DNA of 64,000 nt from Bacteroidota bacterium. GTDB taxonomy: Bacteria > Bacteroidota > JABWAT01. The stretch lies in contig JAKLJL010000002.1 of assembly GCA_023151185.1 (NCBI GenBank), positions 1 to 64,000 on the forward strand, in the 5' to 3' direction. Below the pieces are notes generated by a model. That model worked only from the letters and a program-made list of their open reading frames with translations. It searched no databases and was not told the origin of the DNA. The position numbers were made by a program, and so were the translations under genes. Below, piece after piece: positions 49,671 through 52,386 of the stretch. Position 1 is the stretch's first letter, and every line of letters begins with the position of its first letter.

Positions 49671-51560
49671 TCAACCGCCTGGTTTATTTTTTTCCAGTTT
49701 TGAGGTCAGGAAATTTAAAAAGACCGGAAATCGTTTTCGCCAGCTGATCTCGTTATGATCATCCCCATGATAAATTCCGGTTTGAATATTGCCGGTTTTT
49801 CCGAATTCTTTGAACCGGATGAGATCAGTAACCGCAAGATGAAGAGGAACCTGATCACGGTCGAGAGTTTCGGTACCGGTATCCAGATAAATCCAATGAG
49901 AGCAGGGTGACGGAAGGTGATCTTTCAGATACGGAAAAATTCCGGGGGGCTCATCCGTCCAAAGGGCAGAAAAACTCCCGGCACCACCAAAAACCCCGGG
50001 ATACTCACACAAAGCATATAAACTGATCAGTCCACCCATCCCGCATCCCGCAATAAAGGTATTTTCCGGATCGGGTTTTGTGTTAAAATGGGAATCCAGA
50101 TAGGGTTTTAGTTCCCTAACCAGAAATCTCAGGTAATTATCAGACAGGGGCAACGTGCCGTGCTCAGCCTGATATGTTTTTGAAAATTCTTCAGATTCAG
50201 GGTAGTAAAACGGTTTTTCGGGCAGGTAATCCATGAAACTATAGGAGGTATGGTGGATCCCGACCACGATAATTCCCGGAGAAATCCCGCTGGTGCAAAG
50301 CCTGGTAACCGCTTCATCAGCACCCAGATCTACACCAATGTAGGAAGTTGACGGGTCAAACAGATTCTGACCGTTCTGCATATACAGAACCGGATACCGC
50401 AAGTTTGAATCTGCCGGACCTTTTTCAGGCAACCAGACATCGACCGTCCGGCTTTCGGTGTATTTTGAAGGAAAAAAAGGAATTCTGACCACTTTGCCGG
50501 TATGAGTTCCGCCCGATATCCGGTTTTTCCCCGGGTCCTTCATCTGGTGGCACGGGCAAAAGTTGTAACAGAAATGAAGTCCCAGTTCCCGATTCGTTTT
50601 CCATGAAAAATCAGAATACCGGGTTAAATAAAATGCTGAGAAAATCAGTAATCCGGAGAGTAGTGCAACTGAAATTAATACCGGAACCTGAGAAAGATAT
50701 CCTGCCGTAAAGGATTGACGGTAATTTTCCAGTTTGGCGATCCGGCGAGAGAAAAAGAAAAATTCAGACAGGTTGGAAACATGCGAGACCGCCTGGGTAT
50801 TTGTTTGGCAGGCAGCCTGACTTTCCCTTGTTTTTTTTAAAACAGAAGCAAGATTCTCCGGATCTGCCCCGGTCTGAACGGAAGCCGAATCGGTAGCCCT
50901 GACCAATAACCAGCGTGAGACCGGAAAAACAACCCAAAAGGTGAGTCCTGCCGGTACCAAAGCAGCAAACAGGGAAAGAAACGGACCGGAAACAGGACCG
51001 AGTAACAGATTATAAGGGAAATTGGAACCCAGTTCCGGGTAAAAAAGGGTAATCCGGATCAGGATTTCACTAAAAAACAGAGAAATCCACAGGCAGAAAA
51101 CAGTGAAAAAAGTGAGGGCAAGTATCAAATAATAAAGGGAGTGCCTTTTCTTTAACCGGACAAATCCAGAAATCAGAAGTGCCTTCTTTTCACCCTCATT
51201 CAATTCTGAAAAAAATGCTTTTTCCAAAAGAAGTACCGGAGTGAGAATTCCCCGAACCATCCACTTTTCAGTTAATTCTTCTGTAAACTCAATCAAGGAA
51301 GGCTGTTTAAATCTGAGTTGGCGGATTGCATCCTGTACTGGGTTCCGGATTTCATCCGGAAATGTGTCAACTGAAACTTTCAGATTCCCGATTTTCCCCG
51401 GCCGGGGTCTGCCGGTCACTATAAAAAGGACCAGAATACTTAAAAAACCAAAGAATTGAAAGGCAATCAGGAATGGAACTGCCGGGATATCCAGCGGATT
51501 TCCGGCCAGAAAGTAAAGATGACCCCAGATTTTAATAAACCAACCGGAAAAAAAGTTCAT
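49671..51560 (-). CDS. BlaR1-shaped membrane protein: degenerate M48/M56 module fused to degenerate esterase domain
   Basis: This 629-residue protein is predicted to cross the membrane four times (about residues 28-48, 137-160, 190-215 and 297-320). LNEGEKKALLISGFVRLKKRHSL aligns with M48/M56 peptidases, but SGFVR replaces the HExxH zinc site and the later glutamate motif (RATDSAS) is also lost. From about residue 345 an enterobactin-esterase/EstD-like alpha/beta hydrolase follows (DVWLPEKG, YPVLYMQNGQNLF, IVVGIHH). Its nucleophile elbow reads GCGMGG, with Gly507 where GxSxGG needs serine. The esterase part should lie in the periplasm. The gene directly follows a BlaI-family repressor gene, 6 bp apart, as in blaI-blaR1 pairs, so a sensor role is likely and enzyme activity is not. 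Confidence 0.72.
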   Translation of the reverse strand: MNFFSGWFIKIWGHLYFLAGNPLDIPAVPFLIAFQFFGFLSILVLFIVTGRPRPGKIGNLKVSVDTFPDEIRNPVQDAIRQLRFKQPSLIEFTEELTEKWMVRGILTPVLLLEKAFFSELNEGEKKALLISGFVRLKKRHSLYYLILALTFFTVFCLWISLFFSEILIRITLFYPELGSNFPYNLLLGPVSGPFLSLFAALVPAGLTFWVVFPVSRWLLVRATDSASVQTGADPENLASVLKKTRESQAACQTNTQAVSHVSNLSEFFFFSRRIAKLENYRQSFTAGYLSQVPVLISVALLSGLLIFSAFYLTRYSDFSWKTNRELGLHFCYNFCPCHQMKDPGKNRISGGTHTGKVVRIPFFPSKYTESRTVDVWLPEKGPADSNLRYPVLYMQNGQNLFDPSTSYIGVDLGADEAVTRLCTSGISPGIIVVGIHHTSYSFMDYLPEKPFYYPESEEFSKTYQAEHGTLPLSDNYLRFLVRELKPYLDSHFNTKPDPENTFIAGCGMGGLISLYALCEYPGVFGGAGSFSALWTDEPPGIFPYLKDHLPSPCSHWIYLDTGTETLDRDQVPLHLAVTDLIRFKEFGKTGNIQTGIYHGDDHNEISWRKRFPVFLNFLTSKLEKNKPGG

Positions 51561-51566
51561 CTCGGG

Positions 51567-51980
51567 TCAGATTTTTTTGAAAGTGGAACGACTATTATTT
51601 CTCATATCCTCAGGAACAGTCAATTCAGCAGGGGCTGGTGTGCAGGCAGAATTCATTTCTTCCGGAAAGTTTTTTTTAAGTTCCCATATCACCTGTTCAA
51701 CGGCACCCATGGTAAATTGCTTCCGGGTTACAGCTGGAGAAAAGAGTAATCCGTTACGGGTTTTCTGTCTGACCAAATACTCTTTATCGGCCAACCGTGA
51801 CATGACTGTAAGAACCGTTGTATAAGCAAGTTTCCGCTTCAGGTTCAGACGTTCAGTCGCCTGGCGAACCGACAACGGGTTTTCTTCCCAGATCAGCACC
51901 ATTATTTCAGTTTCAAGGTCACCCAAAAACTTGTTGAGCCCCTTTTTTTCAGGACTAACTGTAAAATTATGTATGTACAC
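51567..51980 (-). CDS. blaI: BlaI/MecI-family transcriptional repressor
   Basis: This regulator of about 137 residues has the BlaI winged helix: LGDLETEIMVLIWEENPLSVRQATERLN, AYTTVLTVMSRLADKEYLVRQKTRNG and LFSPAVTRKQF. BlaI dimers bind TACA/TGTA-type dyads and are cleaved or displaced when the BlaR partner signals. The start is uncertain. The GTG at 51980 begins an N-terminal extension, and a downstream TTG near the conserved LGDLE is also possible. The DNA around it holds TGTACA and TGTA/TACA half-sites that could be an operator. Confidence 0.85.
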   Translation of the reverse strand: MYIHNFTVSPEKKGLNKFLGDLETEIMVLIWEENPLSVRQATERLNLKRKLAYTTVLTVMSRLADKEYLVRQKTRNGLLFSPAVTRKQFTMGAVEQVIWELKKNFPEEMNSACTPAPAELTVPEDMRNNSRSTFKKI

Positions 51981-52134
51981 TAATTACAACCAATGAAAAT
52001 AATTAAGATACTTGGTGAATTCATTACTTTCAATACACAGGAAAAGATTTTGGCCCTTCTGAAAATCTATTAAAATACCGATGCCCGGTCTCCCGCTTTT
52101 GATTTTGCTGAATTGAATCAGAACTTTACCTGTG

Positions 52135-52386
52135 ATGAAAACGATCAATTATGTAATCTGGCTTCTTTTTCTGGGAACGGCAGTTTCTGTTATTCTTCCG
52201 GAAGAAAATGAAAAAATTCAACCCCAGGTTCCGGATGAAAAGTTTGCTGAGTCCCTTCCGACTTCAGTCATTGCATCCGGAAAGCGGGTCAGCGAAAAAG
52301 CCTTTCAGTCACTTCTGTTAAAAAATGACGGTTTCAGGGCAACCTTTCTGGACACACTTTATCACCACCATGCTCCCACTCATTGA
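52135..52386 (+). CDS. Small membrane-anchored protein of unknown function
   Basis: This 83-residue protein has one N-terminal hydrophobic segment (INYVIWLLFLGTAVSVIL), followed by a charged soluble tail rich in K, E and Q. There is no lipobox or recognised motif. Its end overlaps the Maf gene by 17 bases. The ATG at 52135 follows a GTG that is also in frame. It could be a real small envelope protein, but support is limited. Confidence 0.45.
   Translation: MKTINYVIWLLFLGTAVSVILPEENEKIQPQVPDEKFAESLPTSVIASGKRVSEKAFQSLLLKNDGFRATFLDTLYHHHAPTH

Follow-up and report, generated by a model that had tools for sequence, protein, structure and literature searches.

Two neighbouring genes on the minus strand of a 64,000-nucleotide stretch of Bacteroidota DNA (the window, that is, the whole stretch analysed, positions 1 to 64,000 of contig JAKLJL010000002.1) encode a repressor and its membrane partner, a pair that is rare and belongs to an uncultured genus of this phylum. 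The two genes are separated by 6 bp; their reading frames have the coordinates given in an earlier note on this DNA, and that note's description of a BlaI repressor beside a BlaR1-shaped protein is borne out by the PF03965 match of the first product and by four predicted transmembrane segments in the second. The genome of the window (G000) is compared below with two genomes of the same genus (G001 and G002) and with a fourth genome (G003). The features of the locus are as follows:

51567-51980, minus strand: blaI, winged-helix repressor of the BlaI/MecI/CopY type, 137 aa (PF03965, E=9.6e-20)
49671-51560, minus strand: 629-aa BlaR1-shaped membrane protein, consisting of a four-TM pseudo-protease module, a cysteine linker and an outer pseudo-esterase
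50625-51560, minus strand: N-terminal membrane module (residues 1-312) that has lost the zinc site of the M56/M48-type gluzincin from which it derives (by comparison with the G002 module)
51156-51170, minus strand: SGFVR, residues 131-135, at the place of HExxH (opposite HEMVH, residues 132-136, of G002)
50901-50903, minus strand: V220, at the place of the third zinc ligand, a Glu (E213 of ELSCD in G002, by alignment)
50547-50570, minus strand: outer linker motif CYNFCPCH (C-x3-C-x-C-H; CYNKCICH in G002)
49701-50498, minus strand: outer pseudo-esterase domain, about residues 355-620, PF00756/CE1-like (PF00756, E=2.2e-21)
50031-50048, minus strand: GCGMGG, residues 505-510, nucleophile Ser replaced by Gly (G507; GAGLGG in G002)
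51570-51665, minus strand: BlaI residues 106-137, in place of the terminal helix of G002 and canonical BlaI (no profile or pairwise match)
51981-52131, minus strand: upstream region of blaI, without the TACTAC-N5-GTAGTA operator of the G002 blaI promoter

Hydropathy places the hydrophobic segments of the 629-aa protein at about residues 30-48, 145-163, 194-212 and 292-310; because of these four segments and of the positive-inside charge, the protease-like loops are predicted to lie inside and residues 311-629, with the esterase-like domain, outside, which agrees with the topology proposed earlier. Further upstream, a small ORF of 84 aa with a hydrophobic start (52132-52386) precedes the Maf gene and overlaps its longest reading; it is also present in G001 and G002.

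A second member of the family

The survey of genomes for BlaI next to this architecture, suggested in the earlier note, returned a second member. Among the 60 relatives searched, only G002 carries the full-length fusion (contig JAIUNL010000008.1, 'Bacteroidetes bacterium isolate BAC1', GTDB), with 37-38% identity to the window protein; as in the window, the fusion gene lies directly behind blaI and the pair is divergent from Maf-miaA. G001 has an empty site, where the SpoIID gene is followed by 39 bp, the small ORF and Maf, and the pair is absent from G003 as well. When 85k GTDB genomes were scanned for the fusion-derived peptide patterns YM[HQ]NGQN and [ER]YSDF[HS]W[VK], no fusion besides that of G002 appeared, and 395 sampled genomes of the phylum contained neither a further fusion at E <= 1e-40 nor a further relative of the N-terminal module at E <= 1e-8. 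Standalone esterases, 40-47% identical to the outer domain of G002, are common in the phylum, and a plasmid search gave esterase-domain matches only. Conservation across the fusions, as read from sequence, would thus be that between one pair, the two known members.

The G002 protein also bears on whether a sequencing or assembly error fused two genes or spoiled their motifs. The earlier note had named a join of two separate genes near residue 330 as what would refute its reading; such a join is ruled out because G002, an independent genome, has the same fusion. The losses moreover comprise several independent substitutions, affecting all four zinc-site positions, in a frame that is intact. No point in support of an error was found, and we give this explanation almost no credence.

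Two catalytic losses with different histories

The outer domain is a member of the esterase family PF00756, which covers residues 369-612 of the 629-aa protein (77.2 bits against a cut-off of 22); it is thus not a penicillin-binding sensor with an SxxK serine. The replacement of the catalytic serine by glycine, noticed in the window sequence from the outset, holds in both fusions (GCGMGG in the window, GAGLGG in G002), while all 41 standalone relatives have Ser. Five of 41 near-invariant positions are changed in both fusions (D396N, N437H, R441S, S506C/A and S507G); the catalytic His602, a His in 40 of the 41 standalone relatives, is kept in both, together with Glu604 and Trp607. In a tree of 43 esterases the two fusions form one clade (support 100/100) with tip lengths of 0.51 for the window and 0.45 for G002; as these are nearly equal, the outer domain is not evolving or decaying faster in the window. 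Judged from these alignments, the esterase is an ancestral and conserved pseudo-enzyme whose loss of the nucleophile is common to both known members, and the outer domain would act, if at all, by binding.

Immediately outside the last membrane helix, both fusions carry the CxxxCxCH linker motif, which may form a disulfide or bind a metal; no motif of this type was seen in the examined upstream stretches of standalone esterases. AlphaFold models of the two fusions, built from three-row alignments, had mean pLDDT values of 43.5 and 50.3, a quality too low for any conclusion. Within the window genome, the nearest paralogue of this outer domain (G000:C11:274056) is a lipoprotein-like esterase with an intact GSSMGG, whose N-terminal domain resembles, by eye, a starch-binding module and is a candidate for one.

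In BlaR1, the zinc motifs are H201EXXH and E242XXXD (PMC9834060). The M56 zinc site (HExxH and ExxxD) is present in G002, where HEMVH (132-136) and ELSCD (with E213) supply all gluzincin ligands, and absent from the window protein, whose residues at the four zinc-site positions are S, G, R and V; the loss of HExxH, with SGFVR in its stead, is therefore real, and it extends to the third ligand. The G002 module matches PF01435 (M48; E=5e-8, 33.4 bits, above the cut-off of 20.3) and falls just under the cut-off of 31 for PF05569 (M56; E=4e-6, 26.7 bits). The window module, searched alone, matches no peptidase family in Pfam, PF05569 included, as would be expected of an unrelated membrane anchor that never was a protease. 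However, the locus is orthologous, the four-TM pattern is alike and the module can be aligned with that of G002, in which the gluzincin motifs are intact; although the two modules share 24% identity as against 50% for the outer domains, none of 500 shuffles aligned as well (z 4.4-6.6), and their position is common too. An unrelated anchor is very improbable and already largely refuted. The coding frame of the window module is kept, its coding bias is normal and its codon bias is like that of the neighbouring genes. By descent and shape the 629-aa protein resembles BlaR1, while the features that define M56 are missing from its sequence.

Since the G002 orthologue keeps every zinc ligand, the protease loss is private to the window lineage. 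The conservation of the lost sites in homologues, which the earlier note had proposed to check, is therefore divided: the dead esterase is shared by G002 and the dead protease is not. The two deaths have different histories, G002 having an intact zinc site beside an esterase serine that is already glycine, and on this sequence evidence the two catalytic losses are not one design.

Window BlaI scores 71.5 bits against PF03965 (Penicillinase_R; cut-off 22.6), but the match covers only positions 1-88 of the 115 of the profile, as against 1-114 for G002 BlaI; the two repressors are 52% identical over residues 3-105, and after residue 105 no similarity to G002 BlaI was detected. The alignment of G002 BlaI with the solved BlaI and MecI structures continues through the C-terminal helices; that of window BlaI with a solved repressor is confined to residues 19-95. 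In the BlaI family, it is the C-terminal tail that carries dimerisation. In known systems, the partner protease cleaves BlaI between Asn101 and Phe102 (PMC9834060); in the window repressor, whose match ends at 88/115, this cleaved dimerisation region is not recognisable. The sequence thus suggests an intact DNA-binding half joined to a degenerate dimerisation tail, and the protein may dimerise through another surface. A frameshift behind the altered tail was considered, and by eye the other frames offer no better continuation.

Operators and the candidate regulon

The blaI promoter of G002, which we take to be of the Bacteroidota type, reads TTGACA AA TACTACCAGTCGTAGTA CCTTTG and holds the palindrome TACTAC-N5-GTAGTA within its spacer. 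Exact copies of this palindrome number two in the 4.4-Mb genome of G002: the one in the blaI promoter and another 2.5 kb off, at the start of the gene that comes after the fusion gene and encodes a lipoprotein GH13 amylase (amylase-1). The sole copy with one mismatch lies about 45 bp ahead of a second lipoprotein GH13 amylase gene (amylase-2). Exact copies are nil in G000, G001 and G003, and the background amounts to nine in the 59 other genomes searched. The canonical blaI promoters served as a positive control: in all four genomes they have a palindrome between TTGACA and the -7 box, in the same promoter place as that of the G002 pair though with other spacing. On these grounds the TACTAC-N5-GTAGTA sites are putative BlaI operators. 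The canonical BlaI-BlaR1 pairs themselves (L124-L127, of which L125 lies at G000:C11 near 59170) have an intact HExxH, either HEVSH or HELMH, and the promoter palindrome TACTA-N3-TAGTA; their proteins are nearly identical in G000, G001 and G002. Transfer of this pair between the genomes was considered, but the DNA is 85-91% identical, so that slow evolution is enough and no transfer is needed.

Behind amylase-1, G002 has genes for a TonB receptor, a protein of 1244 aa, a PorV-like protein and a CBM20 protein. The amylase-1 palindrome falls within the gene's longest possible frame, about 100 bp past a likely promoter, and control from there would therefore require either roadblock action or a later gene start. 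Upstream of the same gene (L088:3263-3447), an inverted repeat GTCAC-N7-GTGAC sits just past a TATATTTG box; this repeat may belong to another regulator. The amylase-2 orthologues of G001 and G000, in the same place beside uvrA, are without the palindrome, and nothing closely equivalent to the amylase-1 operon exists in the window genome, whose best match to the amylase is 50%, in a different setting, and whose best match to the TonB receptor is 37%. The window blaI promoter (51981-52131) has no TACTAC-N5-GTAGTA palindrome, and the segment 51960-51995, on which the earlier note had proposed testing BlaI binding, yielded no operator. Two intergenic ACTACA-N3-TGTAGT palindromes do occur in the window genome, one (L086:4784-4798) before an ORF that has no Pfam match and behind which a TonB receptor gene lies, the other (L087:4709-4723) before a Roadblock gene; judged by sequence, they are possibly retargeted BlaI sites, possibly chance, and a weak lead.

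As regards the ligand, similarity to the enterobactin/enterochelin esterase Fes is weak and located about the nucleophile elbow, and the score against its family model (NCBIfam PRK10439) is 26.2 bits, far under the cut-off of 222; the label enterobactin-esterase-like is thus imprecise, the nearest solved structures by sequence being CE1/feruloyl esterases, of which one carries a carbohydrate-binding module. A siderophore, the ester suggested earlier, has no genomic support, and the operator-linked genes of G002 encode GH13 alpha-amylases, starch enzymes rather than iron genes. Because of the CE1/feruloyl relatives and the amylase link, we infer that the evidence favours a glycan or an acylated sugar over a siderophore.

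Taken together, the locus would be a lineage-specific member of BlaI/BlaR1 signalling, in which an outside domain binds a ligand and an inside metalloprotease then cuts the dimeric repressor, the outside domain being here a CE1-type carbohydrate esterase that has no nucleophile and would bind its ligand. The G002 system looks complete, with its zinc site, a full-length BlaI and operators in the blaI promoter and at two GH13 amylase genes; on account of this completeness and of the amylase operators, it most likely responds to a bound glycan or glycan breakdown product by inducing starch/maltodextrin-type genes. The window copy would descend from the same ancestral locus after losing the zinc ligands, the dimerisation tail of the repressor and the operator of its own promoter; it would have no proteolytic signalling and most likely be uncoupled, while still making a membrane-anchored pseudo-esterase. 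We lean, with some reserve, towards this twofold reading, a BlaR1-type glycan sensor in G002 and an uncoupled derivative keeping the anchored pseudo-esterase in the window. The earlier proposal of a ligand-sensing, non-proteolytic variant is upheld as regards a binding-only outer domain and the loss of both catalytic sites in the window copy; it may fit that copy but not the system, since the G002 orthologue keeps HEMVH and ELSCD.

Could the window pair nevertheless be a working non-proteolytic receptor, whose pseudo-protease relays the signal by contact or sequestration to a BlaI acting at new operators? Both frames are intact, the codon bias of the membrane module is that of its neighbours, the operon spacing of 6 bp is kept, the DNA-binding half of BlaI is well conserved, and the two ACTACA-N3-TGTAGT sites could serve as targets; but these sites were picked with hindsight and may have arisen by chance, the pair's own promoter has no operator, the dimerisation tail is gone, and the membrane module has diverged to 24% identity where the outer domain stands at 50%, so that we regard a working receptor as doubtful. 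Its boldest form, a doubly pseudo-enzymatic receptor in which a zinc-less module relays glycan binding to a truncated BlaI without proteolysis, at new operators, having arisen from the proteolytic ancestral type kept in the sister species, is unlikely. Mere decay, with the pair a pseudogene in the making and no role left to it, would account for the missing zinc ligands, BlaI tail and operator, and the absence of the pair from G001 indicates that it is dispensable; against this, 629 and 137 codons remain open with normal coding bias, and the outer-domain branch is about as long as that of the intact copy in G002. We therefore hold simple decay to be improbable, and an uncoupled window copy beside a complete G002 sensor remains the reading that we prefer.

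Comparison with known systems

The literature searched contained nothing that links BlaI/BlaR1 to polysaccharide utilisation or to pseudoproteases. The BlaI proteins of Clostridium thermocellum have small self-regulating regulons, and the motif of one of them is an inverted pair of six-base repeats with five bases between (PMC8457756); the half-site sequence differs from that of G002, and the annotation gives the partner proteins of that species as ordinary BlaR1. The canonical pair L125 has the same gene order as the pair described here and likewise a palindrome between TTGACA and the -7 box; unlike it, L125 has HEVSH, an operator of other spacing (TACTA-N3-TAGTA) and no esterase domain in the stretch read. 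With CE1/feruloyl esterases (PF00756; PDB 6rzo, 6mot and 7b5v) the outer domain shares the sequence family and the conserved H602, E604 and W607; it differs from them by Ser to Gly, by HDGQ to (H/Q)NGQ, by changes at other fixed positions and by its fusion to a membrane module.

Like the BlaR1/MecR1-BlaI/MecI systems of Staphylococcus and Bacillus, the pair comprises a repressor gene beside that of a four-TM receptor with an inside gluzincin loop and an enzyme-derived C-terminal domain outside, and in G002 the putative operator lies in the repressor's own promoter. By comparison with BlaR1, whose outside domain is class D beta-lactamase-like and has an acylated serine, the fusions expose a CE1-like pseudo-esterase without a nucleophile; the operator-linked genes of G002 are amylases, and the window copy is without zinc ligands. 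Proteolytic signalling of the BlaR1 type is familiar chiefly from the sensing of drugs. If the preferred reading is true, the BlaR1 protease switch would also serve nutrient sensing, with a sensor recruited once again from an enzyme acting on the class of compound that is sensed, and G002 and the window, the one with the protease site intact and the other with it lost, form a natural comparison for the roles of the zinc site and the repressor tail.
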